Shown here: one piece after another, positions 17,286 to 36,646 of the stretch
Layout of the letters: every line of letters begins with the position of its first letter
How positions within the stretch are numbered: position 1 is the first letter of the stretch
DNA from: a virus
Length of the DNA: 37,028 nucleotides
Strand: one strand, 5' to 3'
IMG/VR virus record: IMGVR_UViG_3300032116_000623
Span: 1 to 37,028 of that record
Program-made: the position numbers and the translations under genes
The notes under the pieces: model-generated
The model's input: only the letters and a program-made list of their open reading frames with translations
Database searches by the model: none
Told to the model about the DNA's origin: nothing

Positions 17286-18546
17286 GACCGCCAAGGTCTT
17301 CGAGCCGCTTCTGCATCCCAAACGCTACAAGGGAGCCCATGGCGGCAGGGGGTCGGGCAAGTCTCACTTCTTCGCGGAAAGCCTGGTTGAGGATGCCATA
17401 CGCTTCCCCGGCCTGCGCGCCGTCTGTATCCGCGAGGTGCAGAAGTCGCTGGCGGAAAGCGCCAAGAGGCTGATCGAGGACAAGATCCAGACGCTTGGCG
17501 TCGGCACGCTGTTCAACGTCCTCAAGACGGAGATCGGCACGCCGGGCGGCGGGGTCATCCTGTTTCAGGGTATGCAGGACCATACAGCCGAATCTATCAA
17601 GTCGCTGGAAGGCATGGACCGGGCATGGATCGAGGAAGCGCAGACCCTCAGCGACAAGAGCTGGCGGATGCTGCGCCCGACTATCCGTAAGGACGGCTCG
17701 GAAATCTGGGCAAGCTGGAACCCGCGCCTGAAGGTCGATCCGGTCGATAAGTTCTTCCGCTCACAGAAAGGCGATCCGGCCATTGCCTGCGTGCAAGCCA
17801 ACTGGCGGGATAACCCATGGTTCCCCAAGGTGCTCGAAGCTGAAAGGCAGAGAGACCTGAAGAACGATCCTGATGCCTATCCCCATGTCTGGGAGGGCGA
17901 CTACGTCACCATTCTTGCGGGAGCGTATTATTATGCCGCTCTCAAGGATGCCGAACGGGAAGGGCGCATCGACTTCGTTCCGGTGGACCCCAACCTGCGC
18001 ATTTATGCTTGCTGGGATATAGGCGGTCCCGGTCGGAAGGCCGACGCAATGACCATCGTCATTGCTCAGTTCGTTGGCCAGAAAATCAATGTGCTCGACT
18101 ACTGCGAGGGCGTTGGACAGGTTTTGGGCTATTACACCGACTGGCTGCGCGAGCGCGGCTGGTCCAAGGCGTTTTGTATCGTCCCGCACGATGCCGCGCA
18201 GACGCACGCAGATAACCCGACCGGAATAGACTTTGAGGCGCAGCTTCGGGCCGCAGGGTTCCAGACCCGTAAGATTCATAGTCCGCCCGGCATCATCATG
18301 CAGCGGATCGCGACCACGCGCCGGCTGTTCCCGCGCATCTGGTTCAACCGGGAAAAGACCGAAGGATTACGCGCCGCGCTGGGCTGGTTCCACGAGAAAC
18401 GAGACGAGGAACGTGGCATTGGCCTCGGACCTGATCATGATTGGGCGATCCATGGCGCAGACGCCTTCGGGCTCATGTGCATCGCTTACGAAGAGCCGAG
18501 GACAACCGTGCAGAAACTGGCCCTTCCCACCTTTGGCGCTGTCTGA
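17254..18546 (+). CDS. terL: Terminase large subunit (packaging ATPase and nuclease)
   Basis: DNA-packaging motor, 430 aa. Walker A is GGRGSGKS (residues 30-37), Walker B MDRAWIEE with D122 and E127-E128. The C-terminal RNase H-like nuclease shows acidic motifs CWDIGGPG (D255), PHDAAQ (D313) and DHDWAIHGADAFG (D394/D396, D403). The architecture matches PBSX-type terminases. The first in-frame start is TTG 17254, overlapping the small subunit by about 30 bp; another TTG at 17266 is possible. Confidence 0.92.
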   Translation: MSARLSTLTIKTAKVFEPLLHPKRYKGAHGGRGSGKSHFFAESLVEDAIRFPGLRAVCIREVQKSLAESAKRLIEDKIQTLGVGTLFNVLKTEIGTPGGGVILFQGMQDHTAESIKSLEGMDRAWIEEAQTLSDKSWRMLRPTIRKDGSEIWASWNPRLKVDPVDKFFRSQKGDPAIACVQANWRDNPWFPKVLEAERQRDLKNDPDAYPHVWEGDYVTILAGAYYYAALKDAEREGRIDFVPVDPNLRIYACWDIGGPGRKADAMTIVIAQFVGQKINVLDYCEGVGQVLGYYTDWLRERGWSKAFCIVPHDAAQTHADNPTGIDFEAQLRAAGFQTRKIHSPPGIIMQRIATTRRLFPRIWFNREKTEGLRAALGWFHEKRDEERGIGLGPDHDWAIHGADAFGLMCIAYEEPRTTVQKLALPTFGAV

Positions 18547-22014: not shown

Positions 22015-22974
22015 ATGGCTGCCCCTACCAATGCGCTCCTGCGCGCCGCCGTCGTTGGCGAACGCGAGGACCTCGAAGACACGATCTACAGGGTGTCGCC
22101 CGAAGCGACCCCTTTTACGTCCAACATCGGCAAGATGAAGATCAAGAACGTTCTGCACGAGTGGCAGATCGAAAGCCTTGCCAACCCCGACGCCACCAAC
22201 CAGCAACTGGAAGGCGACGACATCGGCACGCACACGGCGGCGCACCAGCCGTCCCGCATTTCGGTCTATGCCGGTATCTTCCGCAAGGACGGGGCGCTGT
22301 CCCGTACCGTGCAGGAATCGGATCGCGCGGGCCGTGCGGACGAAATGGACTACCAGAAGATGATCCGCGGCATCGAACTGCGCCGCGACATGGAAGCCCG
22401 CATGATCGGCAACTATGCCTCGAACGCGGAATCTGGCCCGACCCCGCGCCGGACAGCGGGCGCCCTGGCATGGGTCGCCACCAACGATGCGCTCGGTTCG
22501 GGCGGTTCGTCCGGCGGCTGGGCCTCGGCGGGCGTGGTCAATGCGGCCTCCAACGGCACGCAGCGCACCTTCACCGAAACGCTCCTCAAGGGCGTGCTGG
22601 TGACCGGCTTCACGAATGGCGCGAAGTACAGCCAGGCGTATATGTCCGGCACGCACAAGCAGCTTGCCTCGGCCTTCACCGGTATCGCGGACATCCGCGC
22701 GACCGTGTCGGGCTCGTCTCAGGCGACGATCTATGGCGCGGCCGATACCTACGTCTCGGACTTCGGCCAGATCAGTTTCATCCCGCACGAATACGGGCTG
22801 ACGCGCGACGTGCTCCTGATCGATCCGTCCGGCTGGGCGGTCGGCACCTATTCCGGCGTCCAGACTGTGACGCTGGCGAAGAACGGCGACTCTGATCGCT
22901 GGATGACGGTCTGTGAAAAGGCCCTCATCTGCAAGAACGAGAAGAAGGGCGCAGTTATCCGCGACCTCACCTGA
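22015..22974 (+). CDS. Major capsid protein (SU10-like)
   Basis: Main shell protein, 319 aa, resembling the SU10-type capsid family (HK97 fold). Recognisable text: EDLEDTIYRVSPEATPFTS near the start, NQQLEGDDIG, then MDYQKMIRGIELRRDMEARM and later KQLASAFTGIADIRATVSG and RDVLLIDPSGWAVGTYSG. No N-terminal propeptide cleavage site is obvious. AAGGA precedes the ATG. A strong hairpin follows the gene, suggesting a separate transcript end. Confidence 0.85.
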   Translation: MAAPTNALLRAAVVGEREDLEDTIYRVSPEATPFTSNIGKMKIKNVLHEWQIESLANPDATNQQLEGDDIGTHTAAHQPSRISVYAGIFRKDGALSRTVQESDRAGRADEMDYQKMIRGIELRRDMEARMIGNYASNAESGPTPRRTAGALAWVATNDALGSGGSSGGWASAGVVNAASNGTQRTFTETLLKGVLVTGFTNGAKYSQAYMSGTHKQLASAFTGIADIRATVSGSSQATIYGAADTYVSDFGQISFIPHEYGLTRDVLLIDPSGWAVGTYSGVQTVTLAKNGDSDRWMTVCEKALICKNEKKGAVIRDLT

Positions 22975-23814: not shown

Positions 23815-25841
23815 TGGGCATCACCTTCTCGGACCCGGATGCGGATTCTGACGTCGATACGACGTCATGGGCGGCGGTCACGCGCGCGGCGGGGTTTGAT
23901 ACCTTCGCCGCATCGCCCACAAGCGCCAATCTGAAGGCGCTGGTCACGGACCTGTCCTATCCGCGTGTCGTGCCGACCTATGCGGCCATGACGGCGCTGA
24001 GTGCAGCCAATCTCAGCGACAACATGGTGGTCAAGGCGACGGCGCGGGCTGTCGATGACGATGGTGGCGAGCAGGAGTTCGTCTGGGATGCGTCCGCGAC
24101 GGATACGGACGATGACGCCACCGTACTGGCGCATGACACGATCACGCCGGGCCGGTTCAAGGCGCTCAACATCATCGGGCGCAGCTTTGTCCGGCTGGAG
24201 CAATGGGGCGCAGACGGCACGGCGGCCAACGACCGGGCAGCGTGGCAGGCATGGGCGGCCAGCGGCAAGATATGCGAGTTGAGGCCCGGCCGCACATATC
24301 TGCTTGATCGCGGGCTTTCCGTTGTCTCCAACAGCCGCCTGATTGGCAATGGCGCAACCGTGCAGATCCAGGTCGGCTCGGGCGGGTTCAACTCCACGGA
24401 TCGCGCCGACAAGTTCAACGCCAACAGTCAGAACACCTGCGCATTTTATGCGCTTGCCCGCGAGAATGTCGCCTTCCACGACATCGTCTTCACGGCGTCG
24501 GCATCGACTGAGCGGGTCGTGCAACTCATTCAGGCCCGTGACGGGTTTGACGATACGCAGTTCCACACCAGCAACATTCTTGTCCGCGACATGAACGTCC
24601 ACGCTGGCGGTGGCCTGATCGGGGTGCATTCGATTGGCGAGGGCGCGTTCCTGATCGAGAACATTCGCGGCCTCGATTGTGGCATCACCGGCACGACGTG
24701 GACTACCGGCACGCCGCAGCTAACGCTTGTTGAGGCTGATTCAGACCTTGTCTCGACCACGCCGTCACGGCCCGGCGGCACGATCCGGCGTATCCGTGCG
24801 AAGAACTTCCTGTTCAGCGGCAACGCACTGACGACCTACGGTCAGGAGACTGACCTTGTCACGCTGGCGGGGGCCACGCTGGCGGGCAAGTGTCTCGGCC
24901 ACAACGTGGACGATCTCTTTGCCGATGGCATTGGCGAGGTGCTCGACTGCTTCGCGAATGGCGCTCGCATCAGCAACATCCGGGGCGAAAACGTTATCTT
25001 TGTGCTGAAGCTGATTCACGGGGCCCGTTATTGCGTTGCGACCAACATCAGCGGCAGCGGTATCGGTCGGGGTTCGGTCGGCGGGGCTCTCATCACGATT
25101 GCCGGTACTGGCACAGCCAGCAGCGGCGACACGATGAACAACGTGATTTCGACCTGCACGGTGGAGAGTTTCGCGGTCAACGACAGCAGCGCTGTACTGT
25201 TTCAGGAAAATACCGGAACCGTTGGCGTTCCCAAGCGCAACACCATCATGGGCCTGCGTGTGCTGGGTGACTCCAACGGCGACCAATATGTCAAGGACAA
25301 CTGCACGACCGACGCCGACAACGACAACCGCGTCTATCTGATCGACGGAAGCGCGGCGGGAACAAAGACGGTCAGCATCGTCCACGCCGACAATACGAAA
25401 GTCCACGCCGTCAACCGCGCGCATACGCAGCTCAGTCTCGGCGCGAATCAGGCGGTCACGACCCTTGCAACTCTGGATTTCTCGGTCGCGACCGTGGACC
25501 CCGAGGGAATCGCAGACACAGCCAACGACAAGGTGGCGCCCAAGTGGCCGGGGCTCTATCTCGTGGAAATCGGCCTGCGTTTTGCGACCGATCTGGACGA
25601 TCAGGACACGGTGGAAATCCGCTGCGTCGGTGGCGGCGTCACGCAGGTCACACGCACGACCATCGCCAAGAGCGCAGAGCAGGACATTGTCCGCGCAAGC
25701 TTCCACGTTCTTATCAAGGAACAGGACATCGGATCCGCAACAGCGGACATTTACGCGCAATGCGCGGTTGAGGGCGCCACTGACGCGACCGTGCTGGCGA
25801 CGGTGGATCGCACCGGCATGTGGCTCACGCGGGTCGGATAA
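23814..25841 (+). CDS. Tailspike / receptor-binding protein
   Basis: A 675-aa late protein. The N-terminal 120 residues form a particle-binding head (FSDPDADSDVDTTSWAAVTRA) and a beta motif FVRLEQWGADGTAANDRAAWQ that opens many right-handed beta-helix tailspikes. The middle is repetitive short beta strands with Asn/Gly turns (SRLIGNGATVQIQVG and later SNILVRDMNVHAGGGLIG), the sign of a parallel beta-helix; a beta-sandwich C-terminus follows (RTTIAKSAEQDIVRASFHVL). It likely binds or degrades surface polysaccharide. Coupled to the previous gene by TGATG. Confidence 0.8.
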   Translation: MGITFSDPDADSDVDTTSWAAVTRAAGFDTFAASPTSANLKALVTDLSYPRVVPTYAAMTALSAANLSDNMVVKATARAVDDDGGEQEFVWDASATDTDDDATVLAHDTITPGRFKALNIIGRSFVRLEQWGADGTAANDRAAWQAWAASGKICELRPGRTYLLDRGLSVVSNSRLIGNGATVQIQVGSGGFNSTDRADKFNANSQNTCAFYALARENVAFHDIVFTASASTERVVQLIQARDGFDDTQFHTSNILVRDMNVHAGGGLIGVHSIGEGAFLIENIRGLDCGITGTTWTTGTPQLTLVEADSDLVSTTPSRPGGTIRRIRAKNFLFSGNALTTYGQETDLVTLAGATLAGKCLGHNVDDLFADGIGEVLDCFANGARISNIRGENVIFVLKLIHGARYCVATNISGSGIGRGSVGGALITIAGTGTASSGDTMNNVISTCTVESFAVNDSSAVLFQENTGTVGVPKRNTIMGLRVLGDSNGDQYVKDNCTTDADNDNRVYLIDGSAAGTKTVSIVHADNTKVHAVNRAHTQLSLGANQAVTTLATLDFSVATVDPEGIADTANDKVAPKWPGLYLVEIGLRFATDLDDQDTVEIRCVGGGVTQVTRTTIAKSAEQDIVRASFHVLIKEQDIGSATADIYAQCAVEGATDATVLATVDRTGMWLTRVG

Positions 25842-26767
25842 TGACAACAGCAATCACGTCGGCTAACTCGTCCACGACCAGCCAGCTCCTGCTTGCTGCG
25901 GACGCGACACGCACGTCCGTCACGCTGGAGAACACCGACGCCAACACGCTCTATGTGGCGCTTGGGCAGGCTGCGACGACCTCCATCGGCGGCTATACCT
26001 TCTCGCGCAACTACGGCGCCAGCGCGACCCTGACGCCGCCTGAAAGCTATCAGGCCATCTATGGCATCTGGAGCGCAGACGGGTCTGGCGGGGTCACCAT
26101 CACCGCCGTTACGGACCCCGTGCAGGATGATAACGGGGCCATTTCCACCTATGCCGAATTGAAGACCGCGATTGCCGCCTGGCTGAAGCCCGGCACGACG
26201 CTGCCGACCGAGGAAACTGCGTCCCGCATCCCCGAATATGTCGCGCTGTTCGAGGCCGAGGCCAACCGCGTGCTGCGGACCCGCGACATGGAGTCGGTTG
26301 ATACCGCCCTTGCCGTGACCAGCGGCTCGGCCACCATCCCAACTGGAATGCGCCAGATTACCTCGATCAAGAACGTTTCGACGCCCTATAACGAGATCAT
26401 CTACATCCCCGTTGACACGTTCGAGGGGCTTTATCCCTACAGCACGAGCGAACTGCCGTTCTATTACACGGTTGAGGGCTCGACCCTGCTGTTCTACCCG
26501 GCGCAGACCACGACAGTCCGGGTCCGCTACAAGCGCGGATTGACCGCGCTCACCAACGACAACGATTACAACTGGCTCCTTCGGAAGCATCCCGACGCCT
26601 ATCTCTATGGCGCCCTCATCAATGCGGATCGGCGGCTGATTGACCCGGAGCGCATCGGGCTGGTGGAGCCGCGCTATCGCGAGGTCATGCGCCAGATCCA
26701 GCACGAGGAGGCATTTGTCATCGGCATGGGGCTTCGTCCGCAGCCGAGCGCGAGCTTCGTCGCCTGA
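25841..26767 (+). CDS. Head-tail adaptor (SU10-like) with extra N-terminal beta domain
   Basis: A 308-aa protein. Residues 1-90 are a beta domain (TSVTLENTDANTLYVALGQ and YTFSRNYGASATLTPPE); residues 100-308 match SU10-type adaptors: AWLKPGTTLPTEETASRIPEYVALFEAEANRVLRTRDM, then WLLRKHPDAYLYGALINADRRL. It joins portal to tail. Most adaptors consist only of the second part, so the first is an extension of unknown role. TAATG overlap couples it to the tailspike. Confidence 0.72.
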   Translation: MTTAITSANSSTTSQLLLAADATRTSVTLENTDANTLYVALGQAATTSIGGYTFSRNYGASATLTPPESYQAIYGIWSADGSGGVTITAVTDPVQDDNGAISTYAELKTAIAAWLKPGTTLPTEETASRIPEYVALFEAEANRVLRTRDMESVDTALAVTSGSATIPTGMRQITSIKNVSTPYNEIIYIPVDTFEGLYPYSTSELPFYYTVEGSTLLFYPAQTTTVRVRYKRGLTALTNDNDYNWLLRKHPDAYLYGALINADRRLIDPERIGLVEPRYREVMRQIQHEEAFVIGMGLRPQPSASFVA

Positions 26768-28290
26768 TGTTCCTGAAGCTCACACTTCAACCAGGCCTCT
26801 ACCGGAACGGTACGGCCTACCAGAGCGCAGGACGTTGGTATGACGCCAACCTTGTGCGCTTCTTCGAGGGCCAGATCAGGCCAATGAAGGGCTGGGAGAC
26901 GGGGCTCACGGGAACACTCTCAGGTACGCCACGTGCGGCCCATGCGTGGAAGGACAATGAGGGCGACAGCTTCGCAGCCTTCGGGACAGTGACTTCGCTC
27001 TATGCCCACGACGGCACGACGCTGGACGACATCACGCCGGAAGCTGCGGTCTCGATCCTGCTTGAAGACGGAACGGAGCTTGATACCGAGGGCAGCGAGC
27101 CTTTGTTGCAGGAATCGGGGTTCGACAGCGGGGCGGACAGCTCCACATGGACGCTGGATAACTTTGGCGAGCTTCTTATCGCCTGCAATGACCATGAGCA
27201 GACCATCTATGAATGGCAGCCGCGCGGCGGGCTGGATGCAACGGCCATCACAAATGCGCCCGATGCCAAGGCGATCTTTGTTACCAATGAGCGGTTTATC
27301 ATAGCCCTTGGGGCTGATGGCGATCCGCGACGGGTGGCATGGAACGATCAGGAAAACCGAACTGTCTGGACGGCAACCAGCACCAACCAGGCGGGCGACC
27401 TCAACCTGCAAACGGCAGGCGTTGCCATGTGCGGGGGCAAGGTAAGGTCAGGCGGGCTCATCTGGACGGACACTGACCTGCACCTGATGCGCTATCAGGG
27501 CTTTCCCGACATCTATGGGATTGAACGGGTCGGAAATAATTGCGGCATCATCGGCCGGCACGCCTTCTTCATCGTGGACAGCGTGGCCTACTGGATGGGC
27601 CAGAACGGCTTCTGGCGTTATGTCGGATATGTCGAGCCTCTCCCGTGCGACATCAGCGACGACGTGTTCCGCAACCTCAACACGACCTATCGCAACAAGG
27701 TCTGGTGTCAGCACTTTCCGCAGTTTGGCGAAGTCTGGTGGTTCTATCCAAGGGTCACCAACCTTGCGCTGGAGGATGGCGAAGACCTGCTGCTTGAAAA
27801 CGGCGACACGCTGGAGGCTGAGGGCGGGGCGGTCGAGTGCTCTCATGCGGCGATCTACAATTACCGCGAAGGGCACTGGAACCATACTGAACTGCCGAGG
27901 CTCTGTGGATTTCCAGAGGGCGCTTTTGACTGGCCGGTGATGGTCAACGGCTCGGGCGCAATGCTGAAGCACGAGACGGGCTGGTCCTTCGACAGCGCAA
28001 TCCGCAGGGCGGTGTCGGGGCCTGTGGAGCTGGGCGAGGGCGAGCGCCGGATGCAGATCGACGAGTTCATTCCTGATGAACTGACGCAGGGCGATTGCGA
28101 GGTGACGTTCTACACCCGCGAATATCCCAACGCGACGGAATACACGATTGGCCCCTTCAATGCCGCTGACCGGGTCGGCGTCATCACCACGGCAAGGCAG
28201 GCGCGGATTGAACTGAGAGCCGAGAGCGGAACGGAGGATTTCAGGGTCGGCGCATACCGTGTGCAGGCCAAGGCGCGGGGGCGGTATTGA
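26767..28290 (+). CDS. Tail nozzle-like / tail hub protein
   Basis: A 507-aa beta-rich protein downstream of the adaptor, the position of the nozzle in SU10 and of the tail hub gp10-like proteins of P22. It shows beta-propeller-like repeats (NLVRFFEGQIRPMKGWETG, NNCGIIGRHAFFIVDSVAYWM, NLNTTYRNKVWCQ). Acidic motifs of the type LEDG-x2-L-x-E occur twice, near residues 97-118 and 335-353. TGATG couples it to the adaptor. Confidence 0.7.
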   Translation: MFLKLTLQPGLYRNGTAYQSAGRWYDANLVRFFEGQIRPMKGWETGLTGTLSGTPRAAHAWKDNEGDSFAAFGTVTSLYAHDGTTLDDITPEAAVSILLEDGTELDTEGSEPLLQESGFDSGADSSTWTLDNFGELLIACNDHEQTIYEWQPRGGLDATAITNAPDAKAIFVTNERFIIALGADGDPRRVAWNDQENRTVWTATSTNQAGDLNLQTAGVAMCGGKVRSGGLIWTDTDLHLMRYQGFPDIYGIERVGNNCGIIGRHAFFIVDSVAYWMGQNGFWRYVGYVEPLPCDISDDVFRNLNTTYRNKVWCQHFPQFGEVWWFYPRVTNLALEDGEDLLLENGDTLEAEGGAVECSHAAIYNYREGHWNHTELPRLCGFPEGAFDWPVMVNGSGAMLKHETGWSFDSAIRRAVSGPVELGEGERRMQIDEFIPDELTQGDCEVTFYTREYPNATEYTIGPFNAADRVGVITTARQARIELRAESGTEDFRVGAYRVQAKARGRY

Positions 28291-29276
28291 TCGAGCCCTC
28301 AAAAGCCTACACGCAGCAGAACGAGTTCGAGCATCGGGACGAGGTCGAGCGCGAGCTTATCCAGAAGCACGACAAGCGCGCTGATGTGATCATCCCCTAC
28401 GGCAAGAAACTCGGCTTCACCGGCCTCAATGGCGAGCAGGTGACGCTGATCCTCAACGCAGACGGCGCCTTCACCATCGATGCCGGCACGGGGATTGTGC
28501 GCTTTGCAGGCGACCTTGAGGTGACGGGTTCGGTCACGGTGGGCGAGGTCCGCTGGCCCGTGGCCCTGCAGCCGGCCTATCTCTATGCGGCTGACGGGGC
28601 GACGATTGAATGGGCGGACGGGGCGGCCCTGAGTCAGATCCCGCTGTATACGATCACGGTTCCAAGCGGCGTTGCGCTGGCGGCGGGCGAGGCATGGGAA
28701 GCCCCGACGATCCAGAATGCGACGACGACGGGCGGCACGCTGCGGCTCAAGATATCGACGCCAGGCGCGACCTCCACGACGACGGACAACACGGACAGCG
28801 CGGGCGGGGTTGGCGATCCTGACCGGGTGATGCACAAGTCGGTGAGTGCGGACGCCTATAACGGCATCTACACTTTCACCTTTTCGGGGACCATCGACAT
28901 CGAATCCGAGCCCATGGGCGGCGGGTCTTACTATCATGATGGCGCGGTGACGCTCTCGACCTGGTTCAACGATGGCGGCGGCTGGGATGAGGGGCCTACC
29001 GTGGTCCTGACTGCGGCGAATGTGCTTGGCTACAGTTTCAGCACGGCCAACCTCACCGGCAATCGGGCTTTTACCAACGTTTCCAAGACCGTGACATGGG
29101 CCAATGCGGTGGGCCAGCATGGCGGAACCGAGTTCGGTGCGAGCTATGAAAGCGGTGGGTCGCTGACTGACCTTGTGAGTGTCGCCTACACCACGCAGAG
29201 CACATCCGGCGTCCGCACGGGTTCGCCCAACGGGGAGACGGCGACCATCATCGTAACGCCGCAAAACTCGGCATGA
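28287..29276 (+). CDS. Virion protein, unknown, 329 aa
   Basis: TTG start at 28287 overlaps the nozzle-like stop as TTGA. An acidic/basic N-terminus (IEPSKAYTQQNEFEHRDEVE, then ELIQKHDKRADV) is followed by a phage-type beta repeat (FTIDAGTGIVRFAGDLEVTG) and a long beta-sandwich with many Gly/Thr/Ser (TGGTLRLKISTPGATSTTT). Typical of tail fibers or accessory tail proteins; no specific family recognised. Confidence 0.6.
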   Translation: MIEPSKAYTQQNEFEHRDEVERELIQKHDKRADVIIPYGKKLGFTGLNGEQVTLILNADGAFTIDAGTGIVRFAGDLEVTGSVTVGEVRWPVALQPAYLYAADGATIEWADGAALSQIPLYTITVPSGVALAAGEAWEAPTIQNATTTGGTLRLKISTPGATSTTTDNTDSAGGVGDPDRVMHKSVSADAYNGIYTFTFSGTIDIESEPMGGGSYYHDGAVTLSTWFNDGGGWDEGPTVVLTAANVLGYSFSTANLTGNRAFTNVSKTVTWANAVGQHGGTEFGASYESGGSLTDLVSVAYTTQSTSGVRTGSPNGETATIIVTPQNSA

Positions 29277-29446
29277 GCAACCGCGTGGAATGTCCAACCT
29301 GTGGACGGCTGAAGCCTGATTTCGCGATCAGGGCGGGGCGCTGCAAGGATGATGAGTGGGACGAGCAGCACCTTGGCGAGACGCGGGCGTCTCAGAGCTG
29401 GGAAAGGCGCAAGGCGGACAATGCCAGAAACGAAAGACCGGCTTGA
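29273..29446 (+). CDS. Small Cys-containing protein, 57 aa
   Basis: ATG at 29273 overlaps the previous stop (ATGA) and the frame closes at TGA 29444-29446, overlapping the next gene's start by 26 bases. The sequence starts MSNRVECPTCGRLKPDF with C7, C10 and a later C24, half of a zinc ribbon. Tail is basic. Function unknown. Confidence 0.5.
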   Translation: MSNRVECPTCGRLKPDFAIRAGRCKDDEWDEQHLGETRASQSWERRKADNARNERPA

Positions 29447-29777
29447 AGAGTTCCGGCCGCTCATCGAGCGGGCGCTGGAGCGGACGAATGGCGAATGCAC
29501 ATGGGAGCAACTGGCCCATGAGGTGCGGGAAGGCCGGGCAATGCTGTTGCCGAGCAAGTCGGGCAATTCCGTTGCCGTGCTCCAGATCGTGCATGACCTG
29601 CATGTCTTCACGGCCTCGGGCGATCTCGACGAGCTGATGCAGATGGAAGCGGATGTGACGGACATGGCGCGACGGCAGGGCTTCGACCGGATGACAATGA
29701 TCGGCCGCAAGGGCTGGACACGTGTGTTGGGATTGCGCGGGTGGACGCCTGAGCATTCCCTGGTGAAGGAGCTTTAG
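29421..29777 (+). CDS. Hypothetical virion-linked protein, GNAT-like, 118 aa
   Basis: Start at ATG 29421 after AAGGCGGA; the longer upstream frame is a shadow. The C-terminus resembles GNAT-type acetyltransferase ends often seen in phages (MARRQGFDRMTMIGRKGWTR, then VLGLRGWTPEHSLVKEL). Whether it is catalytic cannot be told. AAGGAG at its end serves the next gene. Confidence 0.55.
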   Translation: MPETKDRLEEFRPLIERALERTNGECTWEQLAHEVREGRAMLLPSKSGNSVAVLQIVHDLHVFTASGDLDELMQMEADVTDMARRQGFDRMTMIGRKGWTRVLGLRGWTPEHSLVKEL

Positions 29778-30518
29778 ATGTCATTCGGGAAATCAAAGCA
29801 GAAAAGCTCGCAGGAGCTGAACCCGTGGGCCAAGCAGCAATGGACTGACCAGACGCGCGGGATGCAGCAGCAGGTCGATGCCTACACCTCGAAGCCGTTC
29901 AACCCCTACACGGGCCAGATGGTGGCGGGTCAGACGGCGACGGAGACGAACGCGCGCGACATGATCGCGAACAACACTTACGACCCGTCCAACGTCTCGA
30001 AGTATTTCAACCCCTATGAGCGTGACGTGGTGGACGCGGCGGGCGCGTATTACGATCAGTCATTGCAGGGCAATCTGGCGCAGAACAATGCGCGTGCAAC
30101 CCAGGCAGGGGCGTTCGGCGGCTCGCGTCATGGCGTGGCCGATGCCGAGCTGATGCGTCAGAACACGATGGACAAGTCCAACATGATGGCGAACCTGCGC
30201 TATCAGGGCTACCAGAATGCGCAGGATGTCGGTTTCCGCGATGCGCAGAACCGCAGGTCTGATGCGGCGATGCTGGCGCAGTTCGGGGCGACCGAGCGCG
30301 AGATCGAGCAAGCGCGGTTGCTTGCGCAGCGTGCCGAGTTCGACCGTCAGGCGGCGGAAGAATACCGCAATCTCATGCTCCAGCTTCAGACGCGCGGAAA
30401 CATCCTCGGCTCAACCCCGATGCTGGTCAATTCGACGGGCAAGAGCAGCGGGTTCAGGTTTGATCTGGGCGAAATGCTCAGCGGAGGCGGCTCGAACGGT
30501 CAAGGCGGGGGTGGCTGA
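29778..30518 (+). CDS. DNA-ejection / internal virion-like protein, 246 aa
   Basis: Gln/Asn-rich, low-hydrophobicity protein, part of the ejection cassette. Recurring text such as FNPYTGQMVAGQTATETNAR and FNPYERDVVDAAGAYYDQS near Tyr/Pro-rich repeats is typical of phage internal proteins. Helical centre (QARLLAQRAEFDRQAAEEYR), Gly-rich C-terminus (GGGSNGQGGGG). AAGGAG precedes the ATG. Confidence 0.6.
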   Translation: MSFGKSKQKSSQELNPWAKQQWTDQTRGMQQQVDAYTSKPFNPYTGQMVAGQTATETNARDMIANNTYDPSNVSKYFNPYERDVVDAAGAYYDQSLQGNLAQNNARATQAGAFGGSRHGVADAELMRQNTMDKSNMMANLRYQGYQNAQDVGFRDAQNRRSDAAMLAQFGATEREIEQARLLAQRAEFDRQAAEEYRNLMLQLQTRGNILGSTPMLVNSTGKSSGFRFDLGEMLSGGGSNGQGGGG

Positions 30519-31738
30519 TGGCAGGGCTTTTTGGCGGGGGTCTTGAGCGCATCAGGCGTCAAGCTGGGTACCTCGCTCCGCGTGTTGCGCGCGAAGAAGA
30601 ACGCATGACACCTGCGCCCATCATGCAGGGCACGCAGGCCCGCACGCGCGATGAGGCGCAAATGGGCGGCCTGATCGGAGGCTCCTACAAGAGCCCCCGC
30701 GCGCAAGGCTGGTGGAACGAGATCATGGCCGATCCGTTCACGGCGCTGCTCGCGGGCCGCAACGGGCTTGACCGGAAGTATGAAGCGCAGGCTGCGGAGG
30801 ATGAAGCGCGGCGCATGGCTCCTCAGATGCAATGGATGGAGCAGTTCACTCAGGGTCTCCCCGATCAGCAGCGCTTCGCGGCCATGACGGCTCCGGGCGA
30901 TCTGGGCAAGGAGTTCGCCAAGGGTGCGGCGCCGCAGACTGGCACCTTCTGGGATGGCAGACAGTGGAACCAGAAGCCGCAGGACATGATGACGGTTTCG
31001 GATGGCGCGGCCGTGTTTGATCCCAACTCCGGCGCTCCAGTGTTCAGCAACCGCGCGCCTCCTGGTCCGAAGTATTTCAACACCGGGCAGGCCGTTGTGT
31101 CTGTTGAGGGTGACAAGGCCAACGTGCTCTATCGCGATCCGCAGAATGCAGGAGGTTCGCAAGCCAGATTGCGCGCCGCCACTCCCGAGGAAGCGGCAAA
31201 GTACGGTCCACCGGGGACGATGGGTCAGATCGACATGACGACTGGTCGCTTCTACCCAACATCGCGTCCCAATCCGCAAACGGGCGGTCTTCCAACCGAA
31301 GGTGAGCGCAAGTTTGGCCTCTATGCTAAGACGGCGCGCGATGCTCTGGCCGACATTGAAGCTATCGAATTTGGTAACGGGTTTGAAGCTGATCCGACAT
31401 TTGATCGCGGCGGGGAGTTAAACCCGTTCAACGGCACGGCGCGCAAATACGACCAAGCAATTGATCGCTTTCTTGACGGCTGGTCGCGCGCAATGACTGG
31501 CGCCGCCATGACGATGGACGAGAAACTATTCTATTACGGCATCATGAAGCCGACGTTTGGCGATGATCCAAGCGTCAGGAAACAGAAAGCCGCTGAACGT
31601 CGCGCCATGGTTGAGCGTCTGAAAGAAGCTGCCGCTCGTGGTTATACCGAGCCGGCCTCAGAACCCATCGTGCCAAGCCTGAGCCCTGACGAAGAAGCCG
31701 AACTTGAAGCCCTCCGGGCAGAGCTGGGAATGCAGTAA
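30518..31738 (+). CDS. Internal virion / ejection protein, 406 aa
   Basis: TGATG overlap with the preceding gene. N-terminus small and basic (LFGGGLERIRRQAGYLA), then a helical region (QMQWMEQFTQGLPDQQRFAAM), a Pro/Thr-rich stretch and a long helical C-terminus (FDRGGELNPFNGTARKYDQA, later RAMVERLKEAAARGYTEPA). Probably enters the cell with DNA as in other podoviruses. No enzyme motif recognised. Confidence 0.6.
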   Translation: MAGLFGGGLERIRRQAGYLAPRVAREEERMTPAPIMQGTQARTRDEAQMGGLIGGSYKSPRAQGWWNEIMADPFTALLAGRNGLDRKYEAQAAEDEARRMAPQMQWMEQFTQGLPDQQRFAAMTAPGDLGKEFAKGAAPQTGTFWDGRQWNQKPQDMMTVSDGAAVFDPNSGAPVFSNRAPPGPKYFNTGQAVVSVEGDKANVLYRDPQNAGGSQARLRAATPEEAAKYGPPGTMGQIDMTTGRFYPTSRPNPQTGGLPTEGERKFGLYAKTARDALADIEAIEFGNGFEADPTFDRGGELNPFNGTARKYDQAIDRFLDGWSRAMTGAAMTMDEKLFYYGIMKPTFGDDPSVRKQKAAERRAMVERLKEAAARGYTEPASEPIVPSLSPDEEAELEALRAELGMQ

Positions 31739-34700
31739 ATGCCCCCACAACTGCAATCACCGCAATCGGCGCCAGACCCTCGCGCCGAACTTGAGCGGCT
31801 GCGCAAGGTCAAGCGCCTGCGCGAGCTTGAAGCGAAGGCGGCTGGTCAGCAGCCTGCGCAGCCCTCATTCTTCCAGCGCCAAGGCCAGCGCATGGTGGGC
31901 ATGGGCACGCCGCAGGCTGCGGCTCCGTCTGCTCCTGATCCCAACGCGCCTAACCCGATCACGACGGCGATGCGCCAGAGTACGGCGCAGGTGAACAGCC
32001 AGTTCGCAGCGCAGAAGGCCGAGGAAGAACGTCGCAGGCAGGAGCGGCGCGAGGCGTCACGCGTCAACATGAGCGATTTCGTCCTGACGCACGACGACAC
32101 GGGCCAGCTTCGCCCGGGCACTGAGGTTGACCGCGACATCGGAAAAACCATCACGACGATGCCAGCGGATGCCGTCAACGCTGCTTCAGGCGCTGCGCAG
32201 GGTCTCATCAATCTGCCGGGCGATGCGCTTCAGAGCGTCATGGGCGGCGAGCGCGTCATTCCGCGTGCTGACCTGCCGGAAATTCCCATACCGCAAGAGC
32301 TGGAATCGGTCGGAAGCCAGTTCACCCAGCCGATCATGCAATTCCTGATTGGTCGCGGCGTTATCGGAAAAGCGGCGCCCGGTGGCGGCAACTTGTCCAA
32401 TGCATCGAAGGATGCAGCGACGGTTTTTGGCGCGTTCGACTCCGAGACCCCGCGCATCACGGAAACGCTTGCTGCTGACTTCATGCGTCAGAACGGCATG
32501 GGCTGGATGGCTGATCGCGATCCGAACAATCCCATGATGGAGCGGGTCAAGAACGCTATCGAGGAGATGGTTCTCGCTTACGCGCCCGTGGAAATCGCGC
32601 GCCGCACGCCGGGAGTTGTTGACGCTATAACGGGTGTCAATCGTGCTGCGCCCGTGCCTACCAATGCAGGAGGCGCTGCCGTCAGTGCGCCCCGCCGGCC
32701 GCCCTCAGTCGCCCCCCCCGTCGCTCCCGTCGCCCAAGCCCCGTCGTCTTCTGCCCTGACGCCAGAGCAGACGGCTACATGGCGAGGCCTCTGGGGTGAG
32801 GTAAAAGCTGCGGAAGCTGCGGGCGATCCGGCGCGACTGGCTGCGGCTCGCCAGGCTGTGCAGACAGCGTGGGACGCGCTGCCGGCAGGCGCTACAGACG
32901 AGGCCTACCGCATAAGCACGCAAGCCGTGCTTCAGCCCTCAGTCGCTCCCGTCGCCCAAGCCCCCGTCCCGCAGGGTCCGCCCCGGATGGCTCAGGCTGG
33001 GCCTGCCGGCGCGGGGCAACAGCCTCCCGCTGGTGGTCCCCAGCCCGTCCTTAACACTGTCCGCACGGCTCCGACCATCTCCAAGGCTCAGGCCAGAGAG
33101 GCCAAGGACACGGCTGTCATCCTCGGGCGCATCATGCGCTCCGGTGGCATCAAAAACGACGCTATACGTGGGTATTTGCCGGGACTGATACAGCGATATG
33201 AAAGCCTGGGTGATAGCCGCATTCCCCTTGCGCGTTTCATAGAACGTGATCTTCCGCAGCATTTTCCTGAAGGGATTGCGGGTGACGTCGTCACCAAGCT
33301 TCGCGGCTTTGGCCGGGAACGCCATGCGAGCACAGGCCCGAAGGATTCGTCGCGCTATACGGTACAGGACACCGTAAAATCGCTGCGTGGATCTCAACAG
33401 GACCATCTTACCGAGGTTATCCGAAGCAACACTTACCGGAAAGACCTGATCGACGCCGAGGACAAGATCAAGGCGGATATGCGCAAGAATGCTGAGGCTG
33501 GCTATGAAACAGCCCTTGCGAACGGCCTTGACCGTTTCACGCAGAACAGGGCGGCGCCGGATGAGGTCGCAGCCTTCGAGCAGATGCGAACCCTGATCGC
33601 GTCAGAGCCGTTCCTGTCGCGCGTTCCCGACCATGTGAAGGTCCGCGCCATTCGTGAGGGCAAGCCTCTGGAGGAGGCGATTGCCGCCGATCCTGTCCGC
33701 ACGGCGCACTGGCTGCAATCGGCTTTGGGCAAGGCCGAGCGGGCGGCGCAGGGCATGGGCGGAAAGGCAACGCCGGAATCGCTGCTCTATAGCGAATTGC
33801 GCGAAGCCGTTCTCGACCCGCTGCAAAAGGCCGTGCCGGGCTACAAGGGCGCCCGAAGCGCCCACGGCGACCTGTTCGGGGCAGATGAGGCGCTGGAGTT
33901 CGGGGAAGACCTGTTTCTCGCCGCCCGTTCGGAAGTCGAGACGGCCCGCAAGGCGCGGGACTTTGGCAAGCTTTCAAAGCAGCAGCAGACCGTCGCGACA
34001 ATGTCGATCCGCGACAAGCTGCTCAACGAGTTCCGCGGCACGCCAGAGGATGCAGCAGCGAAGCTCACCCGGATGCAGCAGGAAGGCGTCCTAGATGCTA
34101 TCGAGCGCATCCTGGGGGCTGACGGCAAGCGCATCACGGCGGCCATTCGTGAGACGGTCGAAGAAAACGACTGGCTGAGATCGATCGATCAGGGATCAGG
34201 CTCGCCAACCTTTGCCAATGCTGCCGGCGCGCGCGATGCAGCCGAGAACGTCCGTGGTCCTATCAACAAGGCTGTGGGATCGCTCGGAGACAAGCGCACG
34301 TATCTAGGCGCCGTTGTGGGCGATGTGGTGCTGTCCAGCGTCGGCGTTCCGCCTGTCCTGACGGTCGGCAAGGCGACGAGCGACGTAGTCGGCGCCGCAG
34401 GCCGTCCCAGCGCTCGCCAGCTTTCCAACGCATCGAAGGGGCTGTTCGGGCTCCCTGAGCCGAAGGCGCCAGCCCCGCCGCCGACACGGGCGCCGCGTGG
34501 CCCGCGCAAGCCGAAAGCGCCGGAGCAGCTTGAAGCCGATCTGGAAACCCTGTTGAAGCGCTATGACGAGATCGACCATCGGAACAACCCGACCGAGTCG
34601 GCGCGCGTCCTGAAGCAGATTGACGCGCTGAAAAAACGGCTCGCCAAACCGCCCGCCACCACAGCCCCCAGCCGTCCGCCAGAGCAGGCGGGGTTCGTAA

Positions 34701-36646
34701 CACCCAGCGCTCTGGCTCCCCTTGTTGGCGGAAGCGGTGGCCTTGCCTATGGCGAGTTCGCTCCGCTTCAGGACATGGATCGCGACGGCGATACGGACGC
34801 AGACGACCGGCAGGCCATGCGGATGAGCTATGGCTTGGGCGGCCTTGTCGGCGGCGGTCTTGCAGGAGCCGGAGCGAACAGGCTGCTAGGGCCGCGTCGT
34901 GGTGCGCCAAAGGCCGGGCCGCAGAAGCCCCCCGCTCAGGCCCCGCAGGCAAAAGCAGCGCCTGCCGTTGGACCAGACACGGTCAGCCAGACGCGGATTG
35001 GAAATAACCGCGACGTGGCGGAGATCGCCATGCCAGACGGTGGCGCGTTCAAGGTCAAGGCCGAAGTGTTCCCAGACCGCGACGCCGTTGTCATGTCGCC
35101 TACATGGCCAACAAACGACATGGACGACCTTGTTGGCGCACTCAAACATCAACAAAGCACCATGCGCGCCCGCGCGCGTGGAATGGACGTGGTGAACGAT
35201 CCTCCGCAGTCGCAAAACTGGGCGCAACAAAACCCGCAGGAGTGGGCGCAGGCGCAACAGCAGATTGGAGACAGCTTCGTTCGTCTGGTTCGCTCGACCA
35301 TGAAACCTGCGCATGTGCTGGCTCTCGCTGATGATGTTGACATCAACGGGCTGGCAACACGGATACAGCTTCAACTCCCGCCGGGCCGCGTTGTGATGGT
35401 CTCGCCATCGAACGGCGAGCTTGCAGTTGTGAGCAAGCAATATCTTGGAGAAAAGCCAGAGCAATTTGCGCGCTGGAAGACTTATAACGCGATTTACAAC
35501 CAGAATAGCGGCTTGCTCCCGATGCCGCCAGCATGGGCGACGGATGGGCTTGATGCGCCGATGCGGCCGACCACCCCCAAGCCCCCCGTGCAGAGCGGCT
35601 TCGGGGGCGCTCCGACAAAGGGGCGGTCAGGAACTGCATCGCGCATGATCGCCGGCGGCGTTGTTGGCGGCATGGCCGGGTCACTCGCTGGTGATGCGCA
35701 AGCGCAAAGCACTGAGACAGCCACGCAACTTGATGCGGTCAACGAGCGCATCAAGCAACTCGAAGCCGATGCCAAAATCTTTGAGACCGGATCAATCCTG
35801 CAAATTCAGCAGCTTCTGCAACGTCGCGGCAAGGTCATTGCCGATGACGGGAAGATGGGTCCGCAGACGGCGGCTGCAATTCAGAAGGATCGGGACGAGA
35901 CACGCGCGGAACTTGAAGCGGCCCGCAAGCGCCGCAGCGATCTGGAAAAGCAGGCAGCAACCGAAGCCACGCGCCCCAACGAAGCGCAGATGGCTTTGCG
36001 AGAGTGGGGGCCAATCCTTGGCGCTCTGGCTGGCCTTGGACTAGGCACAAAGCTCCGTAGCGGTGCAGTCAACAAGGCCGCGAAATCGGCTCCCGCGCAG
36101 ATTGCAAAGGCCAATGCGCTCTTGACGCCTGGCCCCCTCAACAAGAGCCGCAACGCTGCCGCGCAGGCCGCTTTGAAGAAGCAGCCGGCCAATCTCAATG
36201 AGTTCTGGCAGCTTGGCGGGGCAAAGGACGCTGTGCCGTTTGATGTAGGCGCAGGCGGAAAATGGAAGCCGCGCAAGAAGTCTGACGTAATGCCGCCGAG
36301 CAAGCTTTATCCGAACCGCCGCATCCGTTCGATGGATGTCGGCGTGATGGCGGGCGGTGTTGCAGAAGGCGTAGGCGCTCAGTTCGCGGCATCGGCTTTG
36401 GAAGGCCAGATTGAGGAGGCGCGCGCTCTTGCCGAAAAAGAACCCACGCGAGCTAACCTTGCTCGCGTCGAAGCTCTGGAAGACCAGCACGCAATCGCCG
36501 TGCTCATGTCGCGGCTTGGCTATGGCGTTGCAGGCGGTCGCCTGATCGCCTCGCTCAAGATTCCTTATAAGGATGCTCGTCCTGATGTGGCGGCGGCGGA
36601 CGCTGAGCGGGCTTTGCTTCTTGAGTACCTGAAGAAGGTGAAATGA
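31739..36646 (+). CDS. Giant ejection protein, 1635 aa, with peptidoglycan-binding motif
   Basis: Largest gene, last in the late operon; likely carried in the head and ejected to breach the envelope. Residues 280-480 are Pro/Ala-rich linkers; about 490-860 helical (TAHWLQSALGKAERAAQG). Around 1012 lies a dockerin/EF-hand-like loop, DMDRDGDTDADD, flanked by Gly-rich segments (SALAPLVGGSGGLAYG and YGLGGLVGGGLAGAG). Residues 1302-1320 form a glycine zipper (MIAGGVVGGMAGSLAG). At about 1345-1385 a peptidoglycan-binding repeat is visible (ILQIQQLLQRRG, then DDGKMGPQTAAAIQKD). A further zipper lies near 1422 (PILGALAGLGLG). No lytic catalytic domain seen. Confidence 0.72.
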   Translation: MPPQLQSPQSAPDPRAELERLRKVKRLRELEAKAAGQQPAQPSFFQRQGQRMVGMGTPQAAAPSAPDPNAPNPITTAMRQSTAQVNSQFAAQKAEEERRRQERREASRVNMSDFVLTHDDTGQLRPGTEVDRDIGKTITTMPADAVNAASGAAQGLINLPGDALQSVMGGERVIPRADLPEIPIPQELESVGSQFTQPIMQFLIGRGVIGKAAPGGGNLSNASKDAATVFGAFDSETPRITETLAADFMRQNGMGWMADRDPNNPMMERVKNAIEEMVLAYAPVEIARRTPGVVDAITGVNRAAPVPTNAGGAAVSAPRRPPSVAPPVAPVAQAPSSSALTPEQTATWRGLWGEVKAAEAAGDPARLAAARQAVQTAWDALPAGATDEAYRISTQAVLQPSVAPVAQAPVPQGPPRMAQAGPAGAGQQPPAGGPQPVLNTVRTAPTISKAQAREAKDTAVILGRIMRSGGIKNDAIRGYLPGLIQRYESLGDSRIPLARFIERDLPQHFPEGIAGDVVTKLRGFGRERHASTGPKDSSRYTVQDTVKSLRGSQQDHLTEVIRSNTYRKDLIDAEDKIKADMRKNAEAGYETALANGLDRFTQNRAAPDEVAAFEQMRTLIASEPFLSRVPDHVKVRAIREGKPLEEAIAADPVRTAHWLQSALGKAERAAQGMGGKATPESLLYSELREAVLDPLQKAVPGYKGARSAHGDLFGADEALEFGEDLFLAARSEVETARKARDFGKLSKQQQTVATMSIRDKLLNEFRGTPEDAAAKLTRMQQEGVLDAIERILGADGKRITAAIRETVEENDWLRSIDQGSGSPTFANAAGARDAAENVRGPINKAVGSLGDKRTYLGAVVGDVVLSSVGVPPVLTVGKATSDVVGAAGRPSARQLSNASKGLFGLPEPKAPAPPPTRAPRGPRKPKAPEQLEADLETLLKRYDEIDHRNNPTESARVLKQIDALKKRLAKPPATTAPSRPPEQAGFVTPSALAPLVGGSGGLAYGEFAPLQDMDRDGDTDADDRQAMRMSYGLGGLVGGGLAGAGANRLLGPRRGAPKAGPQKPPAQAPQAKAAPAVGPDTVSQTRIGNNRDVAEIAMPDGGAFKVKAEVFPDRDAVVMSPTWPTNDMDDLVGALKHQQSTMRARARGMDVVNDPPQSQNWAQQNPQEWAQAQQQIGDSFVRLVRSTMKPAHVLALADDVDINGLATRIQLQLPPGRVVMVSPSNGELAVVSKQYLGEKPEQFARWKTYNAIYNQNSGLLPMPPAWATDGLDAPMRPTTPKPPVQSGFGGAPTKGRSGTASRMIAGGVVGGMAGSLAGDAQAQSTETATQLDAVNERIKQLEADAKIFETGSILQIQQLLQRRGKVIADDGKMGPQTAAAIQKDRDETRAELEAARKRRSDLEKQAATEATRPNEAQMALREWGPILGALAGLGLGTKLRSGAVNKAAKSAPAQIAKANALLTPGPLNKSRNAAAQAALKKQPANLNEFWQLGGAKDAVPFDVGAGGKWKPRKKSDVMPPSKLYPNRRIRSMDVGVMAGGVAEGVGAQFAASALEGQIEEARALAEKEPTRANLARVEALEDQHAIAVLMSRLGYGVAGGRLIASLKIPYKDARPDVAAADAERALLLEYLKKVK

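Follow-up and report, generated by a model that had tools for sequence, protein, structure and literature searches.

The giant protein encoded at the right end of an uncultured short-tailed phage genome carries, in its C-terminal third, a 12-residue calcium loop of the EF-hand/dockerin type set between two glycine-rich hydrophobic segments, and the ligand residues of this loop are kept wherever it occurs among related giants. The window analyzed here is the whole virus record, 37,028 bases long. Our preferred reading, held at roughly even odds (about 0.5), is that the giant is a modular, injected protein with three C-terminal membrane hairpins, the first of which would be locked by the calcium loop.

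The late genes lie toward the right end of the window, with the portal gene at 18441, the major head protein gene at 22015 and two virion structural genes at 25820 and 26767. On the 3′ side of the structural genes follow genes for proteins of 329, 142, 246 and 406 amino acids and then the giant ORF (Table 1), which is thus placed after smaller genes (142, 246 and 406 aa) as T7 gp16-like ejection proteins are. Family searches with the 406-aa protein gave no match, and a PHROGs search with the giant returned none either, so that no homology to the gp16 families was detected. In a second clade (represented by L137), the gene two upstream of the giant, in the same relative position as the 246-aa gene, matches phrog_598, “DNA ejection” (E = 4.5e-7). 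Domain searches found ART-PolyVal in the giants of L003, L010 and L014/L060, and LPD23 in those of L010, L014/L060, L018 and L027, close before or after the calcium hairpins, which identifies these giants as “polyvalent” proteins. Several disparate effector domains within one polypeptide (ART and LPD23) were seen in L010 and L014/L060; the window giant itself showed neither domain in the Pfam search, and its sole effector-type match is a peptidoglycan (PG)-binding domain below the Pfam threshold. LPD23-like regions are also present in gp60 of Pseudomonas phage H66, annotated as virion-verified by mass spectrometry, and in gp16 of phage AF, which comes after two proteins annotated as internal to the virion and a large gene carrying an endolysin annotation. 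Polyvalent proteins of phages and conjugative elements have been proposed to be packaged and injected with the DNA (Iyer et al. 2017, PMC5512222). The best reading of the window giant is that it is probably a polyvalent-type ejection protein in a T7-gp16-like position, presumably packaged and injected. The first-pass annotation had called it a giant ejection protein, a name now backed by the gene order, the polyvalent domains of its relatives, the “DNA ejection” match of the gene two places before the giant in relatives and the virion annotation in H66.

Table 1. Features of the giant protein and its neighbors in the 37,028-base window (residue numbers refer to the giant)
Feature	Residues	Coordinates	Strand	Basis
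246-aa protein, probable ejection-protein partner		29778..30518	+	neighbor conserved with giants
406-aa protein adjoining the giant on the 5′ side, probable ejection-protein partner		30518..31738	+	position kept in L010, L009, L017, L018
Probable giant ejection/polyvalent-type protein, 1,635 aa (stop included)		31739..36646	+	ORF; ends late-gene block 26767-36646; relatives’ domains
Inter-domain joint (PPEQAGF linker)	971-986	34649..34696	+	blastn between giants; 95.7% DNA identity to L010 joint
Gly-rich hydrophobic segment 1a, hairpin 1 N side	984-1005	34688..34753	+	sequence scan
Shared DNA block	1003-1076	34745..34966	+	blastn; 96% identity with otherwise dissimilar L003 giant; shorter in L009
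EF-hand/dockerin-type calcium loop DMDRDGDTDADD, 12 residues	1012-1023	34772..34807	+	pattern, conservation, module profile
Gly-rich hydrophobic segment 1b, hairpin 1 C side, then GPRRG	1029-1051	34823..34891	+	scan; charge asymmetry
Joint VQSGFGGAPTKG..., common to L010	1281-1297	35579..35629	+	blastn; 87.9% DNA identity over aa 1281-1326
Gly-rich hydrophobic segment 2a, hairpin 2	1298-1322	35630..35704	+	sequence scan
Peptidoglycan-binding-like stretch in helical insert of hairpin 2	1355-1392	35801..35914	+	weak Pfam matches
Gly-rich hydrophobic segment 2b, hairpin 2	1418-1444	35990..36070	+	scan; helix in AlphaFold2 model
Gly-rich hydrophobic segment 3a, hairpin 3	1531-1554	36329..36400	+	scan; AlphaFold2 model
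Gly-rich hydrophobic segment 3b, hairpin 3	1585-1610	36491..36568	+	scan; AlphaFold2 model

The first-pass annotation had proposed a dockerin/EF-like loop between two glycine-rich, membrane-like segments, and this arrangement was confirmed, with DMDRDGDTDADD as a canonical loop. The comparison set consisted of 29 giants at the same genome position, mostly found through neighboring genes used as baits (the 507-aa and 246-aa genes, and a 378-aa gene of the second clade). Apart from the second-clade seed, found by the loop pattern, and L003, found by similarity to the giant, all were selected regardless of the loop. Among them, 13 carry EF-type loops, 15 in total, compared with 0.405 expected in the set from shuffled proteins (0.01 in the window protein). 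A glycine-rich hydrophobic segment lies within 12 residues on both sides of 14 of the 15 loops, the fifteenth having no N-side segment above the threshold; the corresponding figure for random 12-mers is 1.2%. The 15 loops comprise about eight distinct sequences, with five identical copies, and are not all independent. The L003 copy stems from a recent exchange with the window, and L002-L004, whose hairpin is 96% identical to that of the window at the DNA level, were rejected as conservation evidence for that reason.

All 15 loops have D at position 1, N or D at 3, D at 5, G at 6, D or N at 9 and D or E at 12, while positions 2, 4, 7, 10 and 11 vary more freely. The ligand residues are kept through synonymous codon changes while neighboring positions vary. 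The invariant columns of the module are the zipper glycines, D1, D5, G6 and the arginine after the loop (R13), and the i, i+4 spacing of the zipper glycines is conserved in divergent copies. Loss of the acidic residues in homologs had been named beforehand as an observation that would refute the first-pass interpretation; the ligand positions are instead calcium-compatible throughout. None of the zipper pairs seen in the giants examined encloses an EF loop in visible decay, and other short zipper pairs enclose different inserts, often a glycine-rich acidic turn. It could be argued that acidic residues fell by accident into an EF-like pattern in an Ala/Gly-rich protein, given that any one short motif turns up often in a large collection of sequences and that the pattern scan also gave EF-like loops in unrelated proteins. 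However, the excess of loops in the 29-giant set, their placement between glycine-rich segments and the conservation at the codon level disfavor a chance origin, which we regard as extremely improbable.

When the module profile was compared with all PDB sequences, 16 chains were retrieved at E ≤ 0.1. All of them are calcium proteins of the EF-hand or dockerin type (calmodulin and centrin are among them), and the displayed alignments cover the loop. Pfam matches of individual modules are weak: EF-hand_5 was found in 9 of 15, with a best E of only 0.13, and none of the 15 modules tested reached the curated family score for EF-hand or dockerin. The loops are unpaired, one per hairpin, and in the two giants with two loops these are hundreds of residues apart. 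Single EF/dockerin loops usually bind calcium weakly. Calcium binding by the loop is a well-supported prediction from the ligand pattern and its conservation. A dockerin-like loop might also serve to dock the giant onto a partner within the core of the virion. The dockerin-type pattern DxNxDGx[IV] fits most loops (the window loop has T at position 8 in place of I/V), and the top PDB match is a cellulosomal dockerin chain. Yet dockerins have two loops and a cohesin partner, whereas there is one loop per unit here and no cohesin-like partner among the neighbors scanned, and docking of this kind seems very unlikely.

The loop is not universal among giants. It is missing from 16 of the 29, some of them cut off by contig ends. 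Searches of named phages with tblastn gave no match to the window giant, the L010 hairpin, the L137 giant or the L137 ejection gene, and the L010 giant matched Pseudomonas and other phages in LPD23-type regions only. No loop between zippers was found in the LPD23-bearing regions of H66, AF and ctsTn925. It was also unseen in 8P and ct2G2228, which weigh little because 8P was read out of frame (73 stops) and just two neighboring ORFs of ct2G2228 were read. Its absence from these 16 giants and from those LPD23 giants of named phages that were readable in full indicates that the loop is optional and dispensable to ejection as such. Genome scans for a relative with the giant found none, the single weak match being a Cytophagales MAG.

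Six glycine-rich segments, four of them after hairpin 1, make the C-terminal third of the giant a series of three zipper-insert-zipper units. The hydrophobic segments contain GxxxGxxxG, the pattern that defines glycine-zipper domains, and Pfam glycine-zipper models match several of the 15 modules, all weakly. The zippers annotated earlier near residues 1302 and 1422 correspond to segments 2a and 2b; the first zipper was also rightly recognized, but begins slightly before the 34720 given as the start of the feature, at nt 34688, and the two zippers of hairpin 3 are additions to that annotation. Its “peptidoglycan-binding repeat” held up as a PG-binding-like match but not as a repeat, being a single stretch (aa 1353-1392) between zippers 3 and 4 with scores under the curated cut-off (PG_binding_3 / PG_binding_1, E = 0.00098 and 0.074). 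In the same hairpin 2 insert, profile A6 gives a match (E = 0.0054) to a murein transglycosylase chain, in its C-terminal part. The AlphaFold2 model of residues 1285-1635 has long helices in a hairpin arrangement (pLDDT 70.9), with the first zipper of hairpin 2 in its low-confidence part (residues 1-39), and fold searches with this C-terminal model returned nothing at E ≤ 0.001. The model of hairpin 1 (pLDDT 51.8), with the C-side helix only, is too low in confidence for use.

Similar plans were observed elsewhere. A protein of about 400 aa (L003:19787-21007, also in L009, L017 and L173-L175) has hydrophobic membrane segments flanking a helical insert with a weak PG_binding_1 match, as in hairpin 2 of the giant; its gene adjoins a DnaK-like gene and, in L003, also a lysozyme-like gene. 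Another recurrent zipper hairpin, RIVGGGVGAFAGSAGDALAAP-GDGNEGGGPDIINP-GTGAIAGMIAPRLAG, lies at about aa 260-330 of giants (L140, L145, L147, L158, L163, L164, L169), and its conserved acidic glycine-rich turn is not EF-like. EF-like loops with no flanking zippers occur in two viral-contig families, of 185 aa (DLNADGAMDLLE; L021, L033, L042 and others) and 487 aa (DMNGDGVIDSDD; L031, L107, L122 and others). A very common small viral-contig protein of about 105 aa (L022, L026, L029 and many others) carries a canonical EF loop, DLNGDGVIDAEE, near its N-terminus, followed by a charged helix and one hydrophobic membrane-like segment (MAWFALFGLLLYPFGI), a second, unrelated case of a calcium loop occurring together with a membrane segment.

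Blocks of 88-98% DNA identity connect the window giant with those of L010, L003, L009 and L018 (blastn). They map to the N-terminus, to linkers rich in proline, to the PPEQ(S/A)GF(G) joint, to the C-side half of the calcium hairpin and, in hairpin 2, to the joint and zipper, while the domains between them differ among giants. Zippers and linkers thus seem to serve also as sites of recombination, and conservation of the C-side zipper is partly due to recent exchange. The loop, in contrast, is conserved in divergent copies for reasons other than such exchange. A linker of the form P(E/V/A)(Q/K)(S/N/A)GF(G) recurs between domains (window 34649-34696 and 35579-35629; L009, L010, L017 and L060) and, being kept at the DNA level, is apparently a joint for domain shuffling. 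An unnamed domain (VKAEVFPDR.AVVMSP.WP...) follows the calcium hairpin at about aa 1083-1240 of the window giant (nt about 34985-35458); it was also noticed by eye in the L014 giant, and other relatives have LPD23 or linkers there. The comparison suggests that the giants were put together by domain exchange at conserved linkers and zippers, which would account for the diversification of polyvalent proteins and for their poor recognizability by whole-protein similarity. The same identity blocks, with differing domains between them, would be expected if the Gly/Ala-rich stretches were soluble and flexible, acting as spacers between exchangeable effector domains and as the joints at which these recombine, with the loop rigidifying a spacer. 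Marginal hydrophobicity and the low-confidence model of hairpin 1 also speak for such spacers, but they are hard to reconcile with zipper glycines kept at i, i+4 in divergent copies, with the helical hairpins of the C-terminal model and with the charge asymmetry around the hairpins, and we consider them unlikely.

Hydrophobicity was compared with that of the two membrane regions of T7 gp16. On the Kyte-Doolittle scale the window zippers score about 0.9-1.2 and the gp16 regions 1.1-1.4, and raw Hessa sums are comparable. The raw sums, about +6 to +8, do not favor autonomous transmembrane helices, and stretches of the T7 capsid protein 10A are equally hydrophobic, so that the comparison permits insertion without pointing to it. 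T7 gp16 purifies as a soluble monomer yet inserts into liposomes (PMC8954989). In all 15 calcium hairpins the loop has a net charge of -4 to -6 and the C-side flank +3 to +6, the N-side flank being mixed and not consistently positive. The hairpin 2 inserts carry -1 to -6 with a C-flank of +3 or +4, and the 30-aa insert of hairpin 3 carries -4. Under the positive-inside rule such a charge pattern is expected where inserts stay in the periplasm, and membrane insertion of the glycine-rich segments is plausible. A different possibility is that the loop binds calcium constitutively, as a structural element of a helical hairpin, whether within the virion or extracellularly, and that no calcium-dependent insertion takes place. 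All conservation data are accounted for equally well by such a loop, and surface waters usually contain sufficient calcium to fill it. Furthermore, no calcium role is mentioned for the liposome insertion of T7 gp16 (review PMC8954989). On its own, however, a constitutive structural loop leaves unexplained why 14 of 15 loops lie between membrane-like segments and why the charge contrast is so strong; we hold it possible, if somewhat doubtful.

Under the preferred reading of a modular giant with three membrane hairpins, the protein would be a virion component, polyvalent and T7-gp16-like, injected with or ahead of the DNA. Hairpin 1 would be a single EF-hand-like unit in which glycine-rich membrane segments form the flanking helices, in the order zipper, calcium loop, zipper. 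The plan would be shared by hairpins 2 and 3, the loop being replaced by a coiled coil and the PG-binding-like domain in hairpin 2 and by a short coiled coil in hairpin 3. Once in the periplasm after ejection, the hairpins would enter the inner membrane with their acidic inserts periplasmic and their basic C-side flanks cytoplasmic, and would keep the domains that lie between them (in relatives ART and LPD23, among others) at the membrane or spanning it. Calcium is millimolar on the outside but sub-micromolar within the producing cell; it would fill the loop, neutralize its charge of -4 to -6 and lock the hairpin. That calcium also triggers insertion or pore formation, as the first-pass annotation had suggested, is speculative, and compatible with the data, so that its interpretation is supported in part. 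In its full form, which we think improbable, the EF-hand’s own helices would be transmembrane, soluble in the low-calcium producing cell and inserting in the calcium-rich periplasm, and the calcium hairpin would act as an exchangeable clasp between injected effector domains. If true, such gating would provide a molecular reason why some phages need calcium in DNA entry.

Many phages require calcium after adsorption, and the molecular sensor behind this need is, to our knowledge, usually unknown. A calcium loop within membrane-like hairpins of probably injected giants is a concrete candidate for such a sensor. Calcium control of phage entry becomes a testable idea, since the clasp recurs in related phages with its ligand residues preserved, and the calcium hairpin, at about 80 aa, is a small, expressible test object.

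The first-pass annotation knew of no described system with this order of elements, and the open-literature search agrees, having found no description of the module. Within that literature, no paper joins EF-hand/dockerin loops with ejection or polyvalent proteins, and neither an ejection protein with a glycine zipper, nor a virion protein with a dockerin, nor the combination of calcium, DNA ejection and an EF-hand was found. We therefore describe the zipper-calcium loop-zipper module as a variant of polyvalent/ejection proteins without earlier description in the open literature searched. Like these giants, polyvalent proteins are giant, multidomain and late-gene-linked, and close relatives of the window giant carry ART-PolyVal (PF18760) and LPD23 (PF18838); the window giant, however, lacks ART and LPD23, and the main text of the polyvalent-protein paper (PMC5512222) leaves calcium, EF-hand, glycine and transmembrane unmentioned. 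T7 gp16 and P22 gp16 resemble the window giant in coming last in a series of proteins encoded behind the tail genes and being the largest among them, and in having weakly hydrophobic membrane-type segments and a peptidoglycan-directed domain. In contrast, PHROGs reveals no detectable sequence relation to them, the peptidoglycan-directed part is a PG-binding-like stretch in the window and a transglycosylase in gp16, and no calcium is mentioned for gp16 (PMC8954989). With EF-hand and dockerin loops the window loop shares its 12 residues, ligands at positions 1, 3, 5, 9 and 12 and Gly at 6, but the loop of the giants is single instead of paired, its flanking helices are glycine-rich and hydrophobic, and its Pfam matches are weak. 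Glycine-zipper segments (Pfam Rick_17kDa_Anti and Gly-zipper_YMGG; the EsxX toxin, PMC12744356) have Gly at every fourth residue in hydrophobic helices, as here, whereas in the virion-type giants a calcium loop comes between the zippers and these occur repeatedly in one protein.
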